Shown: piece by piece, positions 12,020 through 29,813 of the stretch
How the letters are laid out: the number at the start of each line of letters is the position of its first letter
Position numbering within the stretch: position 1 is the first letter of the stretch
Origin: Sulfurimonas aquatica
Lineage (GTDB): Bacteria; Campylobacterota; Campylobacteria; Campylobacterales; Sulfurimonadaceae
Assembly (NCBI RefSeq): GCF_017357825.1
Contig: NZ_CP046072.1
Location: forward strand, 1,550,001-1,614,000
DNA length: 64,000 nucleotides
Reading direction: 5' to 3'
The notes under the pieces: generated by a model
Told to the model about the DNA's origin: nothing
Database searches by the model: none
Seen by the model: the letters and a program-made list of their open reading frames with translations, nothing else
Made by a program: the position numbers and the translations under genes

Positions 12020-13168
12020 ATGGATGGTTTTAATGCAATGTTTGAAAAGGCTAAAGAGCGTATCGAGATTCTATCTTCTTTAGAGTCAACTAAAGAAGAG
12101 TCAATTGAGAGTATGCTTGATAAAAAAGGTTACGATAGACGTGACTTTATGAAATGGGCAGCCAGCATAACGGCTATGCTATCTCTTCCCTCACAATTTA
12201 CTCCACTTTTTGCCGAAGCTGCAAAACTAGCCGATAGGCTACCTCTAATATGGCTTCATATGGCAGAATGTACAGGATGTAGTGAAGCATTTATACGCTC
12301 AGATGCACCTACTGTTGACTCTCTTATTTTTGATCATATATCACTTGAATATCATGAAACGCTTATGGCAGCTTCAGGATGGCAGGCTGAAGAAAACCTA
12401 GAGCATGCTATGAAAAAGTATGAGGGTAAATATATTCTTTTAGTTGAAGGTGGCGTTCCAACTGCAATGAATGGAATGTACCTTACTTTAGGAGCCCAAG
12501 CAAAAACGGGACTAAGTCTTGTTCAAGAAGCAGCAGATAAAGCAGCTGCTATATTCTCTATAGGTACATGTGCTAGTTTTGGAGGAATCCAGGCTGCTGC
12601 ACCGAATCCTACGGGAGCAAAAGGTGTTGACAAAGTTGTTAATAAGCCTGTTATAAATGTACCTGGTTGTCCTCCAAGCGCGGCAAATATAGTGGGAACA
12701 TTGATGCACTTTTTGCTTTTTGGAACACTTCCGGCACTTGATAGATACAGTCGTCCAAAATGGGCATATGGAAATCGTATTCACGACCTTTGTGAACGCC
12801 GAGGACATTTTGATGCGGGAGAGTTTGTTGAGAGTTTTGGTGATGATGGAGCAAAAGATGGTTGGTGTTTATATAAACAAGGCTGTAAAGGTCCATATAC
12901 GTTTAACAACTGCTCGACTGAGCGTTTTAATCAACATGTAAACTGGCCAATTGGAGCAGGACATGGATGTATGGGATGTAGTGAACCAAACTTTTGGGAT
13001 ACTATGGGTCCGCTTGAGAAGCCTTTAGAGTCTCACTTAGTCGGTGGCCTAAATAAAACTGTTGACAACATAGGAACAACACTACTTAGTGCTACGGTTC
13101 TTGGTATTGGTGCACATGCAGTTGCAAGTATGTTTGTAAAAAACAGTGATGAGCAGGAGGGAGAATAA
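12020..13168 (+). CDS. hydA: [NiFe] hydrogenase small subunit, Tat-exported (group 1)
   Basis: HydA carries the three Fe-S clusters that move electrons from the Ni-Fe site of HydB to cytochrome HydC. The 382-aa precursor has a twin-arginine signal at residues 39-45 (DRRDFMKW) and a hydrophobic stretch behind it. Proximal-cluster cysteines are at 84 and 87 (ECTGCSEAF), with further ligands in GTCASFGG and PGCPP. The distal His/Cys set is HDLCERRGH and CKGPYTFNNC, and the medial set is GHGCMGC. A C-terminal membrane helix anchors it on the periplasmic side. A good ribosome binding site (TTAGGAGAG) precedes the ATG. hydB follows directly. Confidence 0.95.
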   Translation: MDGFNAMFEKAKERIEILSSLESTKEESIESMLDKKGYDRRDFMKWAASITAMLSLPSQFTPLFAEAAKLADRLPLIWLHMAECTGCSEAFIRSDAPTVDSLIFDHISLEYHETLMAASGWQAEENLEHAMKKYEGKYILLVEGGVPTAMNGMYLTLGAQAKTGLSLVQEAADKAAAIFSIGTCASFGGIQAAAPNPTGAKGVDKVVNKPVINVPGCPPSAANIVGTLMHFLLFGTLPALDRYSRPKWAYGNRIHDLCERRGHFDAGEFVESFGDDGAKDGWCLYKQGCKGPYTFNNCSTERFNQHVNWPIGAGHGCMGCSEPNFWDTMGPLEKPLESHLVGGLNKTVDNIGTTLLSATVLGIGAHAVASMFVKNSDEQEGE

Positions 13169-13169
13169 G

Positions 13170-14888
13170 ATGGCAAATAAAAGAGTAGTAATAGATCCTA
13201 TAACAAGAATAGAAGGTCACCTACGTATAGAAGTAGAAGTAGATGAAAACAATGTAGTTCAAAAGGCATACTCATCATCAACTCTCTGGAGAGGAATAGA
13301 GTTAATCTTAAAAAACAGAGACCCTAGAGATGCTGGTCTAATGGCACAGCGTATTTGTGGCGTTTGTACGTACTCTCACTATAAAGCGGGCGTTGAGTCT
13401 GTTGAGAATGCCTTAGGAGTTGTTCCTCCATACAATGCACAGCTAGTGCGTAGTATCTTAAATGAATCACTATATATGCATGATCACGTAGTTCACTTCT
13501 ATCATTTACATGGTCTTGACTGGGTTGATGTAGTATCAGCACTAAGTGCAGATCCAAAAAAAGCTTCAGAGTTGGCGTTTAAATACTCTGACTCTCCTAT
13601 TGCAACGGGAACGGATGAGCTTACTGCAGTTCAAAAAAAAGTAGCAGGCTTTGTAGAAAAAGGTCAACTTGGGCCCTTTGCCAATGCATACTGGGGAAAT
13701 AAGAGTTATAAACTATCTCCAGAACAGAACCTCATAGCACTTTCTCACTACTTAAAAGCGCTTGAAGTACAACGTACTGCAGCTCAAATGTTTGCAATCT
13801 TTGGGGCAAAGCAACCTCATGGACAGACTCTAGTAGTTGGTGGCGTTACAAGCGTAAGAGACATATTAAGTCCTGCAAGACTTGCAGAGTGGAAATCTAA
13901 GTATGAGATAGTTAAAGATTTTATTGACCGTGCTTACTATGCAGATGTTGTTATGGCTGCGGAAGCCTACTCAACTGAGCCAAGTGTTCTAGGTGGACTT
14001 GGCGTTAAAAACTTTATGGCAGCCGATGGCATGATGTTAAACCGTACTGAGAACCTTTTTGAGAGTGGTTTTATAAAAGATGGCGACCTTAGTAAGGTTT
14101 ATGACATTGATGAGATGAAGATAAAAGAGGATGTTACCCATGCTTGGTATGAGGGAGACGAACCTCTACAGCCTTATGATGGAGAGACGCTTCAGAAGTA
14201 TACAGGCTTCATAGATGGTGATACAGTAAATGGTGCTGCAAAAGTTATTGATCCAAATGACAAATACAGTTGGGTAAAAGCGCCTAGATATGATGGCCAA
14301 GCCGTCGAGGTAGGTCCCCTTTCTTGTTTACTAGTAAATTATGCTCGTGGCAATGAAAAAGTTAAAAAAGAAGTTGGTGATTTTCTTGCCAAAACCGGTC
14401 TGCCAGTAGGAGCACTTTTTACAACGCTAGGTCGAACTGCGGCTAGAATGCTTCAAACAAAGCTAATTTCAGATAATGCGATCACTACGTTTAACTCTCT
14501 TATAGAGAACCTTAAAACTGATGACAGCACATATACAAAATTTGAGATTGATCCAACTAAAGAGTACATGGGTCGCTTCATTGGCGAAGTGCCTCGTGGA
14601 GTGCTTAGTCACTGGGTTAGAATCAAAAATGGTCTCATAGATAACTATCAAGCGGTAGTTCCAACGACGTGGAACGCAGGCCCAATGGATAAAAATGGTC
14701 AAATAGGACCCTATGAAGCATCTTTAGTAGGCTTGAAACTCGAAGATCCTAAAAAACCACTTGAAGTGATTAGAGTTATTCACTCCTTTGATCCATGTAT
14801 GGCATGTTCTGTACATGTTATGGATATTAAAGGACAAGAGCTCAGTCAATATAAAGTTAATCCGCTTGGTAGCGGAGCAGCTTGTTAG
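13170..14888 (+). CDS. hydB: [NiFe] hydrogenase large subunit (group 1)
   Basis: The catalytic subunit binds the Ni-Fe(CN)2CO centre and oxidises H2 in the periplasm. It has no signal of its own and is co-exported with HydA. Nickel ligands are in RICGVC near the N-terminus and DPCMACSVH near the C-terminus. After that His a tail of about 23 residues ending GSGAAC would be removed by HydD. The start at 13170 (MANKRVVIDPITRIEGH, 572 aa) was chosen because AGGAGGGAG lies just upstream; an earlier ATG at 13146 would overlap hydA by 23 bases. Confidence 0.95.
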   Translation: MANKRVVIDPITRIEGHLRIEVEVDENNVVQKAYSSSTLWRGIELILKNRDPRDAGLMAQRICGVCTYSHYKAGVESVENALGVVPPYNAQLVRSILNESLYMHDHVVHFYHLHGLDWVDVVSALSADPKKASELAFKYSDSPIATGTDELTAVQKKVAGFVEKGQLGPFANAYWGNKSYKLSPEQNLIALSHYLKALEVQRTAAQMFAIFGAKQPHGQTLVVGGVTSVRDILSPARLAEWKSKYEIVKDFIDRAYYADVVMAAEAYSTEPSVLGGLGVKNFMAADGMMLNRTENLFESGFIKDGDLSKVYDIDEMKIKEDVTHAWYEGDEPLQPYDGETLQKYTGFIDGDTVNGAAKVIDPNDKYSWVKAPRYDGQAVEVGPLSCLLVNYARGNEKVKKEVGDFLAKTGLPVGALFTTLGRTAARMLQTKLISDNAITTFNSLIENLKTDDSTYTKFEIDPTKEYMGRFIGEVPRGVLSHWVRIKNGLIDNYQAVVPTTWNAGPMDKNGQIGPYEASLVGLKLEDPKKPLEVIRVIHSFDPCMACSVHVMDIKGQELSQYKVNPLGSGAAC

Positions 14889-15602: not shown

Positions 15603-16141
15603 AAATACTTCTTCTTGGCATAGGAAATCTTCTCTTTGGAGATGAAGGCGTTGGCGTTCACTTCGTAAACTATATGAAGCAAAAATATAGTTTTCAAGGA
15701 GAGCATCAACTTGACTTTGTTGATGGGGGGACTTTAGCACAGAGACTCATCCCAATTATGGTTGAGTACGACCGCGTTATTATCATAGATACTATAAACG
15801 CTCCAGGTGTTAAAGCTGGGGAGCTCTATTTTTTTAATTTTAATGCCGTTCCAGATGCTGTAAATTGGCAAGGAAGTGCTCATGAAGTTGAAATGCTTCA
15901 AACATTGACTATGATGGATTTAGCAGGAGATCGTCCTGATACCATGATTATGGGAATTGTTCCTACAATCATAGAGATAACTGACTTTTCACTCTCTGAG
16001 TCTGTCTCTGCTAGCATCCCTTTAATGGAAGAGACTTTGTTAAAACATCTAGAGTCTTTAGGATTAACGTCAAGTAAAAAAAGTGATGTGCCAATCTCCT
16101 CTATCATTTCAACTTCATATAAATTAGAACAATGCAGATAG
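15599..16141 (+). CDS. hydD: Hydrogenase maturation endopeptidase
   Basis: A 180-aa protease of the HyaD/HybD family that trims the C-terminal tail of the hydrogenase large subunit after nickel insertion. It begins LLLGIGNLLFGDEGVG, with the nickel-sensing Glu in GDEG, followed by the metal-binding acidic and His positions in VDGGT and GSAHEVEM. It is translationally coupled to hydC. The C-terminal 25 residues are a longer, low-complexity tail than in HyaD. It is the only such protease in this window although there are two large subunits. Confidence 0.92.
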   Translation: MKILLLGIGNLLFGDEGVGVHFVNYMKQKYSFQGEHQLDFVDGGTLAQRLIPIMVEYDRVIIIDTINAPGVKAGELYFFNFNAVPDAVNWQGSAHEVEMLQTLTMMDLAGDRPDTMIMGIVPTIIEITDFSLSESVSASIPLMEETLLKHLESLGLTSSKKSDVPISSIISTSYKLEQCR

Positions 16142-17931
16142 CTTTTAAATTTAAATATATTCATAATAATGGACTATTTACTCGTCTATTAGAGTCTATC
16201 TGTAACTCATCTTCTGTTTGTCACAACCACTATGTAGATAAAGATATCTTTATTTTAGAAGCGTCAGGGAATCAACAAGAGTTAGAAGAACTTGCCGAGA
16301 AAGTATCTGCGACTATACCACAGTCGCTCTTTTTACTTAGCTCTTCTCTTGAGGAGATAAATGAGTTCTCAAGTATTTCTAAAAATGAACTAAACTCATC
16401 ATACTATGAAGTCCCCTTTTGCCTAAAGTGTCAAGAAAAAGTTCTCACAACACTCAACCCATTTGAGGAGTGCTCTGTATGTGGGTTTAGTGATACTAAA
16501 CTAAATTATGAAGAGGCAATTCCTTTAAGGTTTCAAAATGAGAGTAAGAATTTAGAAGAATCATTTATGAATATGGCTGAGGAGTTACTTGAAAATGGGG
16601 AGTTAGAACTACTCACATTCAATGGAAAAAGACATTTTTCACTTCTCTCAAGTGATGAAAAGAAAAACTCTTCAATATTAATATGCGACCCTTCTAATAT
16701 CTCTAAATATTTCTCAATTACTCAGGGCGAACTTAATGCTCTGATGTTAGTTGAAAAACCATCTGTGCGATTAAAGCCTAAGGTGATGTTTTACCATGAA
16801 AACAGCCTACAAAAACCTATGTACCCAGTTTTTTTCTCAGATGACAAGATAACCTTGGCTCTTAGCACTGCGCTTTCAAAAAAAGGAGTCTTCGCACTCT
16901 ACTGTGACAATACTTCTTCACTAAGAGTTTCATCTTCTTTAGAGGAGAACTTTATCATCTCTAGTGGACGAGATATGCTCCCTTGGCAACATGAAATTAC
17001 TAGCCAACACAAGATATGTTCTACTCTTAACAACGTAACGGCTTGTTTAGATAAAGATGGATTGATTCTTGGTAAAAACAAAGATGTTAAGAATCTAAAT
17101 TCAGTAGAGTTTACCTTAAAAAACACTCCAAATAAAAATAGTAATGCAATTACTTTTAAAGCTTCCCATGGTGTTCTACGTTCAATAGTTCTTGAAAATG
17201 ACTTAGATGAAAAATCTATATGTAACATATATCTAAGTAAAGAGCATGACTCCGATATCTGTAGTTACTCTTCTAAAATTGGCTATATCTCAATGGCAGA
17301 GTTTGTTGATGAGCATTTGAGTTCTCCAAAAGAGATGATAGAAGCGATACGAAGTATGGATGAAGAGGGAGCAAGACTAATGAAGAATTTTGAAAATGCT
17401 CATCCAGAACTTTATGCAACTCTTCTAACTATTACTCCACAAGAGAGTAACGCCAACTCCTCTATATCTAAACTTTGGGCAATGGCGGCATACTTTATCG
17501 GCCTTACAACTACTAAAGAGACAGCTATCGCATGTGAACACTTAGAAGCGGCGGCACTGGAATTTCAAGGAAAATCAGGTCCTAGAATTGATTATAAAAT
17601 TATGAAACAAAATAGTGATGGTTATAGAGTAGACCCAAGACTCGCGATTCGCTCATGTATTAGTTTTAAACTCGCTGGAGTGGATGAGTACCTACTTAGT
17701 TTTGGTTTTATCGACTCTTTAGCAGACTTTATAGCTGAACAAGCGGAATTTGCCGATGGGAATATTGCAATAGAAGGAGTTTTACTAAGTGGTTCTCTTT
17801 TTGAAAACCATCAACTTCTTATGCGAACATACAACTCTATTACTCCAAACTACAAGATTTATAGAAATAAAAGATTGAGCCTTGATGGCGATAATATTGC
17901 AGCAGGTGCGGTGACACTTGGGAGTGAATAG
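16132..17931 (+). CDS. hydE: HydE, HypF-related protein, probably degenerate
   Basis: A 599-aa protein in the hydABCDE position of Wolinella-type loci. It carries a zinc-ribbon-like CLKCQEKV...CSVCGF at about residues 99-122. Its C-terminal third resembles the Kae1-like part of HypF: LLSGSLFENHQLLMRTY corresponds to FSGGVFQNRTLFQRV in the HypF next door, and SKLWAMAAYFIGL to GRLFDIVASLTGL. It lacks the acylphosphatase motif VQGVGFRP and the metal-binding HHYAH. An accessory or regulatory role in HypF-dependent cyanide-ligand synthesis is plausible but unproven here. It overlaps hydD by 10 bases and hypF by 14 bases or fewer. Confidence 0.78.
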   Translation: MQIAFKFKYIHNNGLFTRLLESICNSSSVCHNHYVDKDIFILEASGNQQELEELAEKVSATIPQSLFLLSSSLEEINEFSSISKNELNSSYYEVPFCLKCQEKVLTTLNPFEECSVCGFSDTKLNYEEAIPLRFQNESKNLEESFMNMAEELLENGELELLTFNGKRHFSLLSSDEKKNSSILICDPSNISKYFSITQGELNALMLVEKPSVRLKPKVMFYHENSLQKPMYPVFFSDDKITLALSTALSKKGVFALYCDNTSSLRVSSSLEENFIISSGRDMLPWQHEITSQHKICSTLNNVTACLDKDGLILGKNKDVKNLNSVEFTLKNTPNKNSNAITFKASHGVLRSIVLENDLDEKSICNIYLSKEHDSDICSYSSKIGYISMAEFVDEHLSSPKEMIEAIRSMDEEGARLMKNFENAHPELYATLLTITPQESNANSSISKLWAMAAYFIGLTTTKETAIACEHLEAAALEFQGKSGPRIDYKIMKQNSDGYRVDPRLAIRSCISFKLAGVDEYLLSFGFIDSLADFIAEQAEFADGNIAIEGVLLSGSLFENHQLLMRTYNSITPNYKIYRNKRLSLDGDNIAAGAVTLGSE

Positions 17932-20200
17932 AGAACTATCCATAAAAGGTATTGTTCAAGGGGTTGGTTTTCGCCCATTTATATATACCTTAGCCTTAGA
18001 GCATGAACTTCATGGTTATGTACTAAATAATTGTAATGGCGTTTATGTTGAAGTAGAAGGCAGACCCTTAGATATAGATAACTTCACTCAAAAGATAAAA
18101 ACAAAACTTCCTATCCTAGCCCGTATTGACTCTCTTAAAATTAAAAATGGAACATTTAAAGAGTATAAAGACTTTAAGATACTTCAGAGTAACCACTCAG
18201 ATACAAAAAGAGCCATAGTCTCGCCTGACATAGCCATCTGTGACAAGTGCCTAAATGAGATGAATTCAAAAGAGAATCGGCGTTACAAATATCCTCTTAT
18301 AAACTGTACGGAGTGTGGACCGCGTTACACTATTATAAACACCCTACCCTATGATAGAAAAAACACCTCTATGTATAAGTTTATTATGTGTAAAAACTGT
18401 CAAGCTGAATATGATAATCCATTAGACAGAAGATACCATGCACAGCCTATTAGCTGTTATGATTGTGGACCATCCATTAGACTTTATGACAATAAAGAGA
18501 CTCTTCTTTGTGAAAAAAACGAGGCTATAGAAGAAATATCTAGATTTTTAAAACAAGGTAAAATTGTCGCTATCAAAGGGATTGGTGGATTTCATATAGT
18601 CTGTGACGCAACAAATGATGAAGCTGTAAAAGACTTACGAATGCGAAAAAAACGCAGTAAAAAACCTTTTGCCGTAATGTTCTCAGATCTTAATAGTGTA
18701 AAAGAGCATACTATCTGTAATGAAAAAGAGAGAGAACTTATAAACTCAAAAGAGAGACCAATAGTTATAGTTGAAAAAAATAGTTCAACTTCTCTCTCAA
18801 ATGAGATCGCACCAGATATAAAAAGATTAGGAGTCATGATTGCCTATACTCCACTGCATCACCTGTTATTTGAACATATCAACTTCCCAATAGTAGCCAC
18901 GAGCGCTAACAGAAGTAATGAGCCAATATATCGCACATTCGAGCAGATAAGAGATAATCTTGGGAGTGTAGTTGACGCTATTTTAGATTTTGATAGAGAG
19001 ATTATAAACGCAGTCGATGATTCGGTTGTTCAAGTTGTAGAAGGCGAAATGCAGACTCTGCGTTTAGGGCGTGGTTACGCTCCACTGAGTATCCCTCTAC
19101 AGAACTCCAACTCTCAAAAAATTCTCGCTGTCGGAGCGCAACAAAAAAGCGCGATTGCACTATCAAATAGCGATGCCGCAATACTTTCTCCTCATATTGG
19201 TGACTTAGAGTCAATTGAATCATTTGAATACTTTGAGAGGACTATAGAAACATTCAAACATTTTTATGATTTTGAGAGTGAAAAAATTATTTGCGATAAA
19301 CATCCCGACTATATGAGCTCTAAATGGGCTAAATCTAAAAATGTAATACATTCAGAAGTACAGCATCACTATGCGCATATCTTAGCCTGTATGATGGAGC
19401 ATGATTTAAAGGAAAAAGTCTTGGCGTTTAGTTTTGATGGAACTGGATATGGAGAGGACAAGATGAATGGCGAAGCCAAAGAGGGTGCCCTGGGGTACAA
19501 GAGTCTCTGGGGTTCAGAGATAATGATATGTGATAGAAACACTACCAAGAGAGTTGGACATATGATGCCCTTACCTCTTTTAGGTTCAAGTTTGTCCATT
19601 AAAGAGCCTCGTCGTATGGCGCTCTCTATGCTGTTTGAGTGTTATGGCTCAGATATAGAAGATAAACTAAACTTAGAACTATTTTCAGATTTTAGCTCAA
19701 ACGAGATAAAGACACTCCATAAAGTTTGGGAGAAAAGACTCAATAGCCCTTTAACTTCATCTATGGGAAGACTCTTTGACATTGTAGCTTCGCTTACTGG
19801 ACTTTTACAAATCACTGATTATGAGGGACAGAGTGGTCTCTTACTAGAATCTTTATGTTTTGATGAAAAAGCTCTGCCATTTAACTATGCCATCTCTAAT
19901 GGTCTGATTGATATCAAGCCTATGATAAAGGAAATTATCACACTCAGTTTAAATGCGACTAAACAAGATATTCCAGATCGTTTTATAAATACTTTAGTAG
20001 CTATTATTAGTGATTTCTCAGACCTTTATCCTAATCTTCCGGTTTTGTTTAGCGGTGGAGTATTTCAAAACAGGACCTTGTTCCAAAGAGTACTCAAACA
20101 ACTAAAGAAGAGATCTCGGGTTTGTTATATGCAAGAAAAGAGCCCAATTAACGATGGTGGGATTGCATTAGGACAGCTTTGTTATGCGCTTTACAACTAA
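17918..20200 (+). CDS. hypF: Carbamoyltransferase HypF
   Basis: HypF turns carbamoyl phosphate and ATP into carbamoyl-adenylate and transfers the carbamoyl group to HypE, giving the cyanide ligands of the active site. Domains in order: acylphosphatase (GIVQGVGFRPF, residues 1-90); two zinc fingers (CDKC...CTECG and CKNC...CYDCG, about 105-185); a YrdC domain (KKRSKKPFAVMF); a Kae1-like domain with HHYAH, SFDGTGYGED and LFSGGVFQNRTLF. The start is TTG at 17918 or GTG at 17924, both inside hydE. About 14 extra residues (KMNGEAKEGALGYK) interrupt the loop after GTGYGED, where other HypF proteins continue directly to the LWGGE-like sequence; they coincide with a 30-bp repeat. Confidence 0.94.
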   Translation: MGVNRELSIKGIVQGVGFRPFIYTLALEHELHGYVLNNCNGVYVEVEGRPLDIDNFTQKIKTKLPILARIDSLKIKNGTFKEYKDFKILQSNHSDTKRAIVSPDIAICDKCLNEMNSKENRRYKYPLINCTECGPRYTIINTLPYDRKNTSMYKFIMCKNCQAEYDNPLDRRYHAQPISCYDCGPSIRLYDNKETLLCEKNEAIEEISRFLKQGKIVAIKGIGGFHIVCDATNDEAVKDLRMRKKRSKKPFAVMFSDLNSVKEHTICNEKERELINSKERPIVIVEKNSSTSLSNEIAPDIKRLGVMIAYTPLHHLLFEHINFPIVATSANRSNEPIYRTFEQIRDNLGSVVDAILDFDREIINAVDDSVVQVVEGEMQTLRLGRGYAPLSIPLQNSNSQKILAVGAQQKSAIALSNSDAAILSPHIGDLESIESFEYFERTIETFKHFYDFESEKIICDKHPDYMSSKWAKSKNVIHSEVQHHYAHILACMMEHDLKEKVLAFSFDGTGYGEDKMNGEAKEGALGYKSLWGSEIMICDRNTTKRVGHMMPLPLLGSSLSIKEPRRMALSMLFECYGSDIEDKLNLELFSDFSSNEIKTLHKVWEKRLNSPLTSSMGRLFDIVASLTGLLQITDYEGQSGLLLESLCFDEKALPFNYAISNGLIDIKPMIKEIITLSLNATKQDIPDRFINTLVAIISDFSDLYPNLPVLFSGGVFQNRTLFQRVLKQLKKRSRVCYMQEKSPINDGGIALGQLCYALYN
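19466..19495 (+). repeat. 30-bp element, copy 1 (inside hypF)
   Basis: This stretch matches 21970-21999 at 27 of 30 bases: a 13-base block AATGGCGAAGCCA, AGAGG, and CCCTGGGG are identical. It is read in the same frame in both genes (NGEA-K/R-E-G/A-A/P-LG). It contains a TGGC-GAA-GCCA hairpin. In HypF it falls in an extra loop. This suggests a small dispersed sequence tolerated in coding regions. Confidence 0.6.
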
Positions 20201-20941: not shown

Positions 20942-21706
20942 ATGTGTAAAGATTGCGGATGTAGCATAACGGAGCATACACACGCTCACGAACATAACCA
21001 CTCACACAAACACCATGAGGCTCATGAAATGCTTCATCATAACCCTCAGTTAAATGATAAAAAAACTATAGAGGTCATCACAAAGATACTAGATAAAAAT
21101 GACCATGAAGCGGGACATAATCGTGCCCACTTTGATTCACATGGAGTCCTTGCCATAAACCTGATGAGTTCACCTGGTAGTGGGAAAACGACTCTACTAG
21201 AGAAGATGCATGACATAGCAGGTTTTAAATATGGCGTTATAGAGGGTGACTTAGAGACGTCGCGAGATGCAGATAGACTAAAAGCAAAGGGGATAGACGC
21301 TTACCAGATTCAAACGGGAAGCGCATGTCATCTTGATGCGTTTATGGTTCACAAAGGCCTTCACGCGATGGACCTAGAGAAGATAGACGTATGTTTCATT
21401 GAGAACGTTGGAAACCTTGTGTGTCCCGCAAGTTATGACGTTGGGAGTCACTTAAACATAGTGCTTGTCTCAATTCCTGAGGGAGAAGACAAAATAGCAA
21501 AGTACCCGGTAATGTTTAGACAAGCGGATTTGATTCTCTTTACAAAAACGGACCTTCTTCCTCATTTTGAGTATGATATACAAAGAGAAAAAGAAGAAGC
21601 TAGAAAAATAAAACCTAACGTAGACATACTAGAGGTCAATATAAAAGACGAAGCTTCAATTAAAAAAGTTGCTGATTGGATTAAATTTAAAGTGGAGATG
21701 CGTTAA
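20942..21706 (+). CDS. hypB: Nickel-inserting GTPase HypB
   Basis: HypB delivers nickel to the large subunit in a GTP-dependent step with HypA. The 254-aa protein starts with the high-affinity site CxxCGC (MCKDCGC). A His-rich stretch follows (THAHEHNHSHKHHEAHE), which can store nickel, then the G domain with P-loop SSPGSGKTT at residues 76-84, switch residues EGDLETSRDADR, GSACHLD with the G-domain metal Cys/His, and FTKTDLLPH as the NKxD-like motif. It sits 10 bases after the permease gene with a good ribosome binding site. Confidence 0.95.
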   Translation: MCKDCGCSITEHTHAHEHNHSHKHHEAHEMLHHNPQLNDKKTIEVITKILDKNDHEAGHNRAHFDSHGVLAINLMSSPGSGKTTLLEKMHDIAGFKYGVIEGDLETSRDADRLKAKGIDAYQIQTGSACHLDAFMVHKGLHAMDLEKIDVCFIENVGNLVCPASYDVGSHLNIVLVSIPEGEDKIAKYPVMFRQADLILFTKTDLLPHFEYDIQREKEEARKIKPNVDILEVNIKDEASIKKVADWIKFKVEMR

Positions 21707-22032
21707 TGTGCTTGTCAATTCCCTCTAAAATCATTGAAATAGATGAAGACAATAACGCCACAGTCGACACTATGGGAGTTAAACGCCAAGTAAGTTTAGA
21801 CCTGATGGGTGATGATGTCGGTGTTGGAGATTACATCTTAATTCACGTAGGTTTTGCTATGAATAAGATTGATGAAAAAGACGCCCTTGATAGTCTCGAA
21901 CTCTATGCTGAGATAGTTGAAAAAATGGAAGAAGAAGAGAAGAGACAGCTTATTGAAGATGAGAAGGTAAATGGCGAAGCCAGAGAGGCTCCCCTGGGGG
22001 ATGACAACTGTTCAAATCGAGGGCAATCTTGA
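21706..22032 (+). CDS. hypC: Hydrogenase maturation chaperone HypC, with C-terminal extension
   Basis: HypC holds the Fe(CN)2CO group with HypD and passes it to the large subunit. It begins MCLSIPSKI, with the essential Cys2, followed by the OB-like core (VDTMGVKRQVSL, GDYILIHVGFAM). The 108-aa protein is longer than the usual 75-95 aa. The last 30 residues are Glu-rich and then contain NGEAREAPLG, encoded by the second copy of a 30-bp repeat. The start shares one base with the hypB stop (TAATG), and the stop overlaps the hypD start (TTGA). Confidence 0.94.
   Translation: MCLSIPSKIIEIDEDNNATVDTMGVKRQVSLDLMGDDVGVGDYILIHVGFAMNKIDEKDALDSLELYAEIVEKMEEEEKRQLIEDEKVNGEAREAPLGDDNCSNRGQS
21970..21999 (+). 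repeat. 30-bp element, copy 2 (inside hypC)
   Basis: Second copy of the element at 19466-19495 (27/30 identical), close to the 3' end of hypC and in the same reading frame as in hypF. It encodes part of a C-terminal extension beyond the HypC core, so it is unlikely to be required for HypC function. Confidence 0.6.
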
Positions 22033-25719: not shown

Positions 25720-27393
25720 TTAGAGGGTGTTTACCCTATGAGAGCTAAGTTCTACTCCGTTTGTATCTATAACATGTACAGCACAGGCCAGACAAGGGTC
25801 AAAAGAGTGGATTACTCTTAGTACCTCTAAGGGTGCCTCTCTATCTTGGAGTTTCAAACCAACTAACGCCTCTTCATAAGCGCCTCTAACGCCATCAAAG
25901 TTCTTTGGAGTAGCATTCCACGTTGTAGGGGCGATGACAGAGAAGTTTTCTATTTTAGCCTCTTTTATATTTACAAAATGAGAGAGTATCCCACGTGGGA
26001 CTTCAAAAAAAGCTCTCCCTTTTACATTTTTTTCTAAAGTGTCAAAATCAAACTTCACCCAAGTATCAGTATCGTAATACTTAATGTTTTGTATAAGGTT
26101 TGAGACTAATTTAAAAATGTATTCGCATATATAACTACTCTCTATCGCTCTTGCCGCGTTTCTTCCTATGGCTGTCGAGAGGTCCATTAACTCCAGGTCA
26201 CTATCTTTTAAAAACTCATCCACAAAGGGTTTTATCAGTCCATTTTCTTTTTTATAACTAATGAGCACTCTTGCTAAAGGGCCGGTTTCCATAACCTTAC
26301 CATCATACCTAGGCGCTTTTATCCAGGAGTATTTATCATCATTTTTTGCAGTTTTTAAAGAGCCGTCTTCATTTAAATCCGTATAGCAAATCTCATTATC
26401 AAGTGGATTGTCTTTGTACCATGCACGGTCTATCTCTTCTGTGATTTTACTCTCGTCAAAATCTTCAATGTTTTGAAAATCGTGATTGTATATAACGCCA
26501 TCGCTAAATAGTTTTCTATCTTCAAACGCATAACCACCAACAGAGATAAAGTTACCATTGGCTCGACCAAGGCCGGCTTTTATATCATCGCGATATGCGA
26601 TAGCCAGTAACTTCATGTCTGGAAGATAAGCTCTATCTATAAACTCTTTAGCCTCTTTAATGATAAATATATAATCATTAAGCCTTTGAGGATTTAGCAT
26701 ATCCGCTACGCTTGTAACGCCACCAACTACAATGCTTTGAGGGTGTGGCGTTTTACCGCCAAAGATAGCTACGGCCTTGCTAATGTTTGTTTGGAACTTC
26801 AGAGCTTCAAGATAGTGAGAAAGGAGTATAAGATTTTGCTCAGAGCTAAGTTTATACTCGCTGTGTCCCCAGTAACCATTTGCAAACGGTCCTAACTTTC
26901 CTGATTTAACAAAGTTTGCAAGTTTTTCTAAAACAGATTCATAGTGAGAGTGGGAGTTTCTATATGGCTGTTTATGATACTTATGAGCTTCTTTAGATGT
27001 GAGTTTTGCATCAGCGTTTAACGCGCTTACAACGTCTACAAAGTCTAAAGAGTGAAGATGATAAAAATGCACTACATGATCTTGAATAAAAAGTGCCATG
27101 GCCATCAAGTCTCTTATAATCTCAGCATTTTTAGGAAGTGTTAGACTGTATGCGTCTTCAACGGACGTAACCGCTGCTCGAAAATGAGAGTTGGTACAAA
27201 CGCCACAGATTCTTCCAGCTAAAAGTCCCGCATCTCTTGGGTCTCTATCTTTAAGAATAATCTCTATTCCTCGAAAAAGCTGTCCACTTACAAAGGCGTC
27301 TTGAATTACATTATCTTCATCTACTTCTACTTCAACTCTAAGGTGCCCCTCTATTCTTGTAATGGGATCAATAACAATTTTTTTAGTGGTCAT
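25720..27393 (-). CDS. [NiFe] hydrogenase large subunit of the second, cytoplasmic enzyme
   Basis: The 557-aa catalytic subunit has RICGVC near residue 62-67 and DPCLACAVH near the C-terminus. A 17-residue tail after the His (VIDTNGVELSSHRVNTL) indicates proteolytic maturation. It is close in size and sequence to HydB of the first operon. Its partner small subunit has no export signal, so this enzyme should stay in the cytoplasm. The start overlaps the stop of the small-subunit fusion gene by one base. No dedicated protease gene is adjacent. By gene content it resembles the HupL/group 2-type enzymes proposed to feed reductant to the reductive TCA cycle. Confidence 0.92.
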   Translation of the reverse strand: MTTKKIVIDPITRIEGHLRVEVEVDEDNVIQDAFVSGQLFRGIEIILKDRDPRDAGLLAGRICGVCTNSHFRAAVTSVEDAYSLTLPKNAEIIRDLMAMALFIQDHVVHFYHLHSLDFVDVVSALNADAKLTSKEAHKYHKQPYRNSHSHYESVLEKLANFVKSGKLGPFANGYWGHSEYKLSSEQNLILLSHYLEALKFQTNISKAVAIFGGKTPHPQSIVVGGVTSVADMLNPQRLNDYIFIIKEAKEFIDRAYLPDMKLLAIAYRDDIKAGLGRANGNFISVGGYAFEDRKLFSDGVIYNHDFQNIEDFDESKITEEIDRAWYKDNPLDNEICYTDLNEDGSLKTAKNDDKYSWIKAPRYDGKVMETGPLARVLISYKKENGLIKPFVDEFLKDSDLELMDLSTAIGRNAARAIESSYICEYIFKLVSNLIQNIKYYDTDTWVKFDFDTLEKNVKGRAFFEVPRGILSHFVNIKEAKIENFSVIAPTTWNATPKNFDGVRGAYEEALVGLKLQDREAPLEVLRVIHSFDPCLACAVHVIDTNGVELSSHRVNTL

Positions 27394-29813
27394 TACTTCT
27401 TCTCCTCATCTTCATACTTGCGTTCATTTGCAAACTTATCCACAAATCCAAGTTCGGTACAGCCCATGCATCCATGTCCAGCTTGAACAGGCCAACTAGT
27501 GCCACCATTAAATTTCATAGTAGGACAATTTACGTTAGCATATGGACCCTTACAACCCATCTCAAAAAGACAGTATCCCTTTTTAGCGCCATCGTCTCCC
27601 CACTCTTGTACAAACTCTCCTAGCTCATAGTGACCACGTCTCTCACAGTTATCATGAACCCTACCCTCATAAGCCCATAAAGGACGATTAAACTTATCTA
27701 GAGCTGGTAACTCTTCAAACATGACATATGATAGAAGCGTACCAACTATATTTGTAGGATTAGTCGGACAGCCTGGAAGATTAATAATATCATCTCTATT
27801 TAGAGCTTCACTTACGCCTACCGCTCCTGTTGGATTTGGCTCAGCCGCTACTATCCCTCCATCTAAAGCACATGAACCAACCGCTATAACAAGAGCTGCG
27901 TCTTTAGCACACTTTTGAAGTAGAGCTATACCAGTTTCGCCTTTTGGACCAATGCGAAGAAACTTTCCATCCATTGCCATAGGGATAGCACCTTCAACTA
28001 TTAAAATATACTCACCCTTTTGAGTATTTATAATATCTTCTAAAATAGTCTCACTTCTATCACCACTCGCACTCATCAAGAGTTCATGGTAATCAAGTGA
28101 TATATAGTCAAATATGAGATCTTCTATAGCGGGATTTGTAGATTTTATAAAGGCTTCAGAGTTTCCACTACAGTCAGCCAACTCCAACCAAATGATAGGT
28201 ACTTTATTGAGATTACAAAGAGCGCCTTCAACGACTTGCTCAAAACTTGGATGGAGTTGCATATTTGCAGTTACCATCGATATCCAACTATTGACCTCTG
28301 ACTTAGCAATGTCTAATGAGTCCATTGCGGCATCAAGGTTTTCTACACTTAATTCATTTCTAGGATTGATGGAATTAAACTTCTCTATTCTACGACGGAC
28401 TGTTTCTATCTCTTTTTCTCTTTTTATATCGTCTGGAGTTTTTCGAACTATGCTTTTATCTATAAGGCCTTGAGAATCTTTTATGATATCTTGAACCATA
28501 ACCTTACATCTACCACACACTCTTCCCGCTTGTGAGAAGCCTGAGAGTTCACTAAATGAGCTTACACCACTCTGGGCGACTATATCAACTATATCTTGTT
28601 GGTAAGTATGTTCACAACTACAAACCAATCTACCTCTTTCGCCTATGAGTCTATTTTGATATAGATAATTTATATCTACCTCTTCTTGCGTCTCCATAAG
28701 TTTTTGTATATATCCAACGTCAACATTAGAGTTAATCCCTATAAATCGCGTTAGTTTGTCATTGTTTAAAAAGTACTCATCTATTCGATTGTCTTTCTTT
28801 GAAGCAATAACTATTTTCTCAAAACCTTGTGCAAAGTTTGGCGAGTTAACGTCAACTAAATCAAACTCTCCAACTTTCAACATGTCAATACTAACCTCTC
28901 GTTTAAACTCTTGTAGTTTACTACCCAAAATATGAGAAATGGCGCAATCAGCTTGGAGCGTACAATCTTTAACATGACCAGCTACAAAATTATTCGATTG
29001 AACTTCTGCACACTCTCCAACTGCATATACACTTTCATCATCTGTTTGCATATAGTCATTCGTTAATATCCCCTTATTACATTTAAATGTATCTTTAAAG
29101 GACTCTATATTTGGCTTTATCCCAGTCCCAAATAATAAAAAAGGATTTTTAAAACTTAGTTTTTTAGTTTTAAGTAGTGTTATTTTTTCATTCTCAATAG
29201 TCGTGTCTACTATTTCATCGTTATAAGATATCTCAATTTTTCCACCACTTGTATAACACTTTTCTATAGTTTTTATTGAATCACTTGATAGGTTTTTATC
29301 ATAAAGATGCTCACCACGGACTATAAGAGTGATCTTCTTTACATTTTCAACGCTGTTTAGAGTTTCAAGGAGCTCAAGACTAATAGGACCACTACCTATC
29401 ATTACAAAGTTGCTAGTTGAATCTGCTTGTTTGATTATTTGACAATCATCAGCACTTCTAAATACTGCTGCATTTGTAATATTGTCGATATTAAAGAGGG
29501 ATATTGGAAGGGAACCGGTCGCGATAATTAATTTATCGTAACTAAACATTGAAGTGCTTGAAAAAACTCTTTTAGCTTTTTTATCAACTCTATCAATTTT
29601 TTGATTAAGTTCAAGATTAACGGTAGGGTCAAGATAAAGAGCAATCTCATCATTTAAATTGTCATCATCAACCAAACGACATAGATGAATTCTATCATAA
29701 GGAGGGAACTTTTCATCACTCAGAATCATTACCTCTAAAGAGGAGTCTTTCTTTTTAAGAGTGTTAGCTAAATATACAGCGGCAATACCACCACCTACGA
29801 TTACTACTCTCAT
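27393..29813 (-). CDS. Fusion: FAD/NAD oxidoreductase + BFD-type [2Fe-2S] + [NiFe] hydrogenase small subunit
   Basis: An 806-aa protein with three parts. Residues 1-310 are a class III pyridine nucleotide-disulfide oxidoreductase like the N-terminus of NirB: FAD motif VVIVGGGIAAVY, NAD motif GSGPISLE at 141-148, and VYAVGECAE. Residues 398-436 hold a BFD-like [2Fe-2S] site (Cys398, Cys400, Cys433, Cys436). After a charged helical linker (about 450-530), residues 535-806 are the hydrogenase small subunit, with Cys548, Cys648, Cys682, His720/Cys723, Cys748/Cys754, Cys763, Cys782 and Cys785. The second proximal cysteine is Asn551 (CSGN). There is no Tat signal. The protein probably links H2 oxidation directly to NAD(P) or ferredoxin in the cytoplasm. 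It is a single open frame with no frameshift signs. Confidence 0.9.
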   Translation of the reverse strand: MRVVIVGGGIAAVYLANTLKKKDSSLEVMILSDEKFPPYDRIHLCRLVDDDNLNDEIALYLDPTVNLELNQKIDRVDKKAKRVFSSTSMFSYDKLIIATGSLPISLFNIDNITNAAVFRSADDCQIIKQADSTSNFVMIGSGPISLELLETLNSVENVKKITLIVRGEHLYDKNLSSDSIKTIEKCYTSGGKIEISYNDEIVDTTIENEKITLLKTKKLSFKNPFLLFGTGIKPNIESFKDTFKCNKGILTNDYMQTDDESVYAVGECAEVQSNNFVAGHVKDCTLQADCAISHILGSKLQEFKREVSIDMLKVGEFDLVDVNSPNFAQGFEKIVIASKKDNRIDEYFLNNDKLTRFIGINSNVDVGYIQKLMETQEEVDINYLYQNRLIGERGRLVCSCEHTYQQDIVDIVAQSGVSSFSELSGFSQAGRVCGRCKVMVQDIIKDSQGLIDKSIVRKTPDDIKREKEIETVRRRIEKFNSINPRNELSVENLDAAMDSLDIAKSEVNSWISMVTANMQLHPSFEQVVEGALCNLNKVPIIWLELADCSGNSEAFIKSTNPAIEDLIFDYISLDYHELLMSASGDRSETILEDIINTQKGEYILIVEGAIPMAMDGKFLRIGPKGETGIALLQKCAKDAALVIAVGSCALDGGIVAAEPNPTGAVGVSEALNRDDIINLPGCPTNPTNIVGTLLSYVMFEELPALDKFNRPLWAYEGRVHDNCERRGHYELGEFVQEWGDDGAKKGYCLFEMGCKGPYANVNCPTMKFNGGTSWPVQAGHGCMGCTELGFVDKFANERKYEDEEKK

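Follow-up and report, generated by a model that had tools for sequence, protein, structure and literature searches.

Very small mobile repeats have been on record for decades, and we know of no mechanism established for them. Among the cyanobacteria, the small dispersed repeats (SDRs) reportedly described by Elhai and co-workers in 2008 are said to measure 21–27 nt, to possess a structure evident from compensatory changes and to reside in tandem arrays of heptamers; copies that are nested or in tandem reportedly occur, and no dedicated transposase is known. The byp (translational bypassing) elements of yeast mitochondria are short hairpin inserts in coding sequence. Larger or otherwise organized repeats comprise the Rickettsia palindromic elements (RPE), which are about 150 bp long and form ten families within one genus (PMC10969869), the REP/REPIN sequences linked to RAYT Y1 transposases (PMC3116915, PMC3733652), and the PARCELs, 25-residue amphipathic tandem domains often present in membrane-targeted ORFs (PMC2996958).

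The window analysed here is a stretch of 64,000 nt of the Sulfurimonas aquatica genome (NZ_CP046072.1, positions 1,550,001 to 1,614,000), in which hypF and hypC each harbor a copy of a short repeated sequence. The best explanation overall is probably a non-autonomous mobile element of minimal size, exactly 39 nt, that would move as a folded single strand. A literature search, with most subscription journals outside its coverage, retrieved no description of the element's sequence, of its peptide or of 39-bp in-frame dispersed elements.

The insertions in hypF and hypC

The preliminary description had reported a 30-bp sequence shared by window positions 19466–19495 and 21970–21999 at 27 of 30 bases. 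This match was confirmed, and a repeat comparison stretched the similarity between hypF and hypC to 46 nt (83% identity); the 30 bp, however, represent the core of a larger unit of 39 nt. The first copy (CAAGATGAATGGCGAAGCCAAAGAGGGTGCCCTGGGGTA; 19459..19497, forward strand) is located within hypF (17918..20200, forward), the second (GAAGGTAAATGGCGAAGCCAGAGAGGCTCCCCTGGGGGA; 21963..22001, forward) within hypC (21706..22032, forward); homologues were found for both host genes. In HypF, the copy encodes 13 residues in the register K-M-N-G-E-A-K-E-G-A-L-G-Y and is positioned in the GTGYGED..LWG loop, as had been stated, with a length of exactly 13 instead of about 14 residues. The HypF proteins of all 29 relatives compared lack these 13 residues (13-aa gap), and one Sulfurimonas locus (L148) carries the same insert at the same site. 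The insert of HypC had been placed beyond the normal end of the protein; it actually consists of 13 residues inside the normal C-terminal tail, where relatives without it read ED-DNCPNR (the hyphen marking the insertion point) and four loci (L020, L026, L029, L185) are filled at the same site. The preliminary description had made its proposal dependent on further copies and on empty sites in relatives. Empty sites are indeed present for both genes, the DNA reading GATGA-TGG(A/C)AA in hypF and GATGA-TAA(T/C)TG in hypC, and the search for more copies yielded none in the same genome and many in related and distant ones.

The genome of S. aquatica itself was examined by sequence-pattern search. 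For the 13-mer AATGGCGAAGCCA, the window has exactly two occurrences (19466 and 21970), and these are also the sole ones in the whole 2.85-Mb genome; a genome-wide search with a 19-mer at up to two mismatches likewise returned two copies only. The genome thus holds two copies of an element that is abundant in other bacteria. The location of both within one gene cluster, 2.5 kb apart, might suggest that the hypC copy derived from the hypF copy by local gene conversion or duplication, as could also be understood from the preliminary description. The two copies, however, belong to different subtypes (first base/guide/last bases: C/GTG/TA in hypF versus G/CTC/GA in hypC), so that neither was simply copied from the other; moreover, each has its own site-matched relatives as listed above, which marks the window copies as common to relatives and not as a fresh local duplication. 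Local copying is therefore very improbable, and we infer that the hypF and hypC copies are old residents of this genome for which no function of their own is required.

The surroundings of the two genes show some further features. Immediately upstream of hypF, an ORF of 599 aa (window 16132–17931) resembles a HypF-related paralogue, and HypF queries also matched similar frames of 580–690 aa in relatives. The hyp genes are flanked by two inverted hydrogenase gene sets (window 12322–14296 and 25720–28119) with inverted arms of 37–115 nt that are 72–85% complementary. An Rfam search of the hyp region gave nothing relevant.

Unit length and precision of insertion

Altogether 129 distinct versions of the element were gathered from Campylobacterota, Zeta-, Gamma- and Betaproteobacteria, several Patescibacteria and Lentisphaerota; the pattern GRTRAATNNCGAAGNNARAGANNNNNNYCTGGGG, built from the copies of related genomes, matched at least 117 stretches in contigs representing one genome per species. 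Their alignment revealed a fixed unit of 39 nt, equivalent to 13 codons. The boundaries are confirmed by repeats that exist in empty and filled form: the palindromic repeat of L126 is empty between GTCATTTCGACCGA and AGTGGAGAAATCT and longer by exactly 39 nt in L147, and the empty site of L200, between GATTCCCGCCT and TCGCGGGAATGAC, is distinguished from the filled sites of L137 and L176 by the same 39 nt. In consequence, insertion entails neither target duplication nor target loss. A MITE of a DDE transposon was considered and rejected, since terminal inverted repeats and a target-site duplication are absent (the filled sites exceed the empty ones by the 39 nt of the unit and no more).

Loops of CGTC-type REP hairpins are insertion sites of the element in both orientations (L099, L126, L137, L147, L152, L176, L202); in L099 it occupies the same bond, empty in the L200 repeat, in the opposite orientation to L137 and L176. 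Insertion into such loops in either orientation suggests single-stranded targets. Head-to-tail multimers of the 39-nt unit are present in L171, L210 and L239, and two Mariprofundus genomes with similar flanks contain one copy (L209) versus two (L210). In Aestuariicella hydrocarbonica (L266–L285), most copies are surrounded by arrays of 7-nt repeats (ACTCGCT, ACTCGCC and ACTAGAA types), the heptamer phase of which runs on across the element in the cases read. Among the loci examined there were no half elements and no longer, gene-carrying versions, only degenerate or truncated copies. A divergent relative in L183 (position 5553, forward strand; AGGTGAGTCGCGAAGTGAGGGCGTATTCTTCGGGG) retains nearly all pairings with a changed core and possibly represents another subfamily.

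Fold and covariation

Mutual information was calculated for 99 copies with dissimilar flanks (numbering 1–39). The top pairs were 11:19, 1:27, 12:18, 29:38 and 28:39; pair 30:37 was much weaker, and the other signals were small, none being comparable. These six covarying pairs define a short stem closed by a C(GNA)G triloop and a pairing between an internal guide and the ends, in which guide positions 27–31 pair with positions 36–39 and with base 1. In the window, the hairpin TGGC-GAA-GCCA is situated at 19468..19478 in the hypF copy and at 21972..21982 in the hypC copy (both forward), its pairs 11:19 and 12:18 covarying among 127 distinct elements. The guide of the hypF copy (GTGCC, 19485..19489, forward) pairs with GGTA at 19494–19497 and with the first base, C at 19459; that of the hypC copy (CTCCC, 21989..21993, forward) pairs with GGGA at 21998–22001 and with G at 21963. 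The two copies thereby differ in a compensatory manner at 1:27 (C-G versus G-C) and 29:38 (G.T versus C-G). Of the folding proposed in the preliminary description the TGGC-GAA-GCCA hairpin stands; the additional AGGG/CCCT or CCAG/CTGG pairing has to be replaced by the covarying guide-end helix.

Over the ten pairs in the 127 distinct elements, 97% were paired, compared with 37–56% when the partners were slid; for the variable pairs the value was 95.5%, whereas shuffling gave 63.6% on average and 67.1% at most, relatedness being not fully corrected in these counts. At pair 1:27, C-G, G-C and T-A types recur across phyla. Almost all triloops of these elements read GAA or GCA, with GTA and GGA encountered in other genomes; the C(GNA)G motif forms the highly stable mini-hairpin in DNA that Hirao and colleagues described (cited in PMC4686876). 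The predicted folding energies of single sequences are unremarkable (z about 0 to −1 for DNA, about +1 for RNA) and were uninformative, a point against the preferred explanation. Mismatches at paired positions were G.T in 55 cases versus A.C in 13, which indicates that the written strand is probably the folding one. As pairs 1:27 and 28:39 connect a single guide with either end of the element, the two termini lie next to each other within one helix, as at a nick; in a tandem or circle this helix is a continuous hairpin.

Distribution among genomes

The highest whole-genome copy numbers were found in Aestuariicella (31), the zetaproteobacterium G258 (24) and a Chromatiales MAG (21), with no match for reversed-pattern controls in these counts. 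The element is present in 40 of 78 Zetaproteobacteria. In the family of the window's organism, 64 of 200 genomes gave a loose match and about 22 a match with at most one mismatch; many of the two-mismatch matches, e.g. AATGCCAAAGCCAAAGAGG, resemble chance or conserved coding sequence and were left out of the copies. Four viral contigs carry the element, and a BLAST search of the unit against phages, plasmids and E. coli gave no match.

Insertions in genes

The element comprises 13 codons with five of the six frames open. Among the host ORFs matched by Pfam, 27 of 33 contain it in the sense GA-N frame and six in another frame or orientation. Hosts of the GA-N type are leucyl-, methionyl- and glycyl-tRNA synthetases, HypD, AsnB, UvrD, HsdR (three), PrmC, phosphomannomutase, a NUDIX protein and others; the frame reads D/E-K-V-N-G-E-A-R-E-x-x-L-G and is free of stops. 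With a length divisible by three and a GA-N frame that lacks stops, the insert would be tolerated in surface loops; as the frame is open throughout the element, neither removal from RNA nor skipping in translation is required. A rule of exclusively sense, single-frame insertion does not hold, being broken by L114, L154 and L012 (sense, other frame) and by L178, L179 and L202 (antisense). In HsdR-like restriction subunits of several distant bacteria (L196, L201, L134, L193) the element occupies the same position (IAPD...), which reflects either a hot spot or horizontal gene transfer.

Of the 45 coding copies, 38 have G at stem position 11, versus 34 of 124 others, and the Cys-coding TG stem occurs in 4 of 45 versus 65 of 124; coding stems accordingly prefer Gly over Cys. 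From these base frequencies, partly confounded by taxon as many coding copies originate from Campylobacterota, we would attribute the bias to selection acting on the peptide as far as the structure permits.

The dominance of one peptide frame in genes could be taken as a sign of ordinary protein sequence, i.e. a short peptide that different proteins have in common through convergence or descent, no mobile DNA being involved. Against this stand the conservation of synonymous and intergenic bases, the variation of residues (NGEAR, NDEVR, NCEAR, NAEGR) with the base pairing kept, and the many copies that are intergenic or in other frames; intergenic copies together with the exact 39-nt empty sites refute such an explanation, and its residual probability is practically negligible. 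The proposal of the preliminary description that the DNA itself has spread, in frame, is thus borne out by its occurrence in unrelated genes, the exact empty and filled sites, the compensatory stem changes and the wide distribution.

Candidate machinery and mechanism of movement

Y1 (HUH) tyrosine transposases of the IS200/IS605/RAYT type cut and join folded single-stranded DNA without target duplication. That the element is a REP- or MITE-like passenger of such an enzyme is possible, though doubtful. Recognition of a single hairpin, the absent target duplication and the guide-to-end pairing fit HUH chemistry as generally known, and Y1 genes were detected in all seven element-bearing genomes first tested and in eight of ten others (seven over the cut-off). 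Among the 78 Zetaproteobacteria, however, Y1 genes were not associated with the element (32 of 40 element-bearing versus 30 of 38 element-free genomes, P=1), four genomes with 10–12 copies (G257, G274, G303, G319) gave no Y1 match, and no convincing copy was located beside the Y1 genes inspected. In addition, the guide of the element pairs with the element's own ends, whereas guide pairing in IS608 involves the left flank of the target.

Movement via RNA, in which the ends-together fold would allow a 39-nt RNA to be cut out, joined elsewhere and then reverse transcribed, appears unlikely and somewhat less probable than a Y1 passenger; a route of this kind has reportedly been proposed for the cyanobacterial SDRs. 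It would accommodate the preponderance of G.T over A.C mismatches on the written strand, the mostly sense orientation in genes and the single guide holding both ends. It is opposed by an RNA fold weaker than that of shuffles, by the occurrence of both orientations at one and the same bond of REP loops, and by the reverse transcriptase (RT) genes, which were not associated with the element in Zetaproteobacteria (8 of 40 element-bearing versus 8 of 38 element-free genomes) and which most genomes rich in the element lack, e.g. G258 (24 copies), G301 (16) and G255 (15). IS110 was not associated either (13 of 40 versus 10 of 38 Zetaproteobacteria). Three genomes with 10–12 copies (G257, G274, G319) were without Y1, RT and IS110 matches, which is suggestive only: most host genomes are MAGs, as many of the Zetaproteobacteria probably are too, and gene absence is weak evidence in such assemblies.

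For the preferred explanation, a 39-nt element acting as a folded single strand, the following sequence of events may be envisaged. The element would travel as a folded single strand bearing the sense-strand sequence; a putative trans-acting enzyme might recognize the C(GNA)G mini-hairpin together with the conserved AGGTGAAT and AGAGA arms and cut at the two juxtaposed ends, probably resulting in a 39-nt circle or multimer. The excised unit would then be joined into DNA exposed as a single strand, preferably behind a GA dinucleotide. Insertions into surface loops would be tolerated and, to judge from the frame and stem bias, subsequently retained by selection. A variant without any dedicated transposase, in which the guide-held ends allow excision of a mini-circle and its re-insertion by near-universal bacterial enzymes or by self-catalysis, has a rather low probability, below that of the RNA route; if true, the element would rank among the smallest independent mobile elements and cause recurrent 13-residue protein insertions across phyla. 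Its sharp boundaries, lack of target duplication, cross-phylum spread and end-tying guide offer a testable model for movement of units below 40 nt. The same 13 residues in tRNA synthetases, hydrogenase maturation proteins, helicases and restriction enzymes present a case of mobile DNA adapting to translation.

Comparison with known mobile repeats

The 39-nt family is no SDR by size, sequence or host, no RPE by size and no GTAG/CGTC REP by tag. To the RPEs, with which the preliminary description had compared it, the likeness extends to behavior, i.e. in-frame presence in unrelated genes, a conserved peptide and structured DNA; membership does not follow, as the unit of 39 nt falls far short of the RPE size, is distributed over many phyla and shows a tightly defined guide-end covariation. 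In common with REP/REPIN sequences, the element is short, hairpin-forming, dispersed, non-autonomous and inserted without target duplication; it differs in having no GTAG or CGTC tag but conserved arms, no Y1 association or flanking, a frequent location within genes, and insertion into CGTC-type REP hairpins themselves. PARCELs resemble it as protein-coding palindromic repeats with horizontal spread across distant taxa, whereas the element forms single hydrophilic 13-residue insertions in housekeeping enzymes. Like byp elements it is a short hairpin insert in coding sequence; in contrast to them, its 39 nt keep the frame open, bypass is unneeded, and no take-off codon with a matching landing codon was seen.

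With the SDRs the element shares its tiny size, a structure backed by compensatory changes, and the occurrence in heptamer arrays (Aestuariicella) and in 39-nt tandems (L171, L210, L239). Its length of 39 nt and its unrelated consensus nevertheless set it apart from the SDR definition, as do its hosts (proteobacteria, Campylobacterota, Patescibacteria and others), the one guide for both ends and the frequent in-frame coding insertions. Repeats on Nostoc and Anabaena plasmids (L315 at about 14704 and 15004; L316 at about 8005) contain mini-hairpins of the C(GNA)G type, one stem or more being compensated, which suggests a mechanism shared by the cyanobacterial C(GNA)G repeats and the 39-nt element. 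By analogy, the best reading is that the element would act in the manner of the cyanobacterial SDRs, as a non-autonomous unit operating on single strands.
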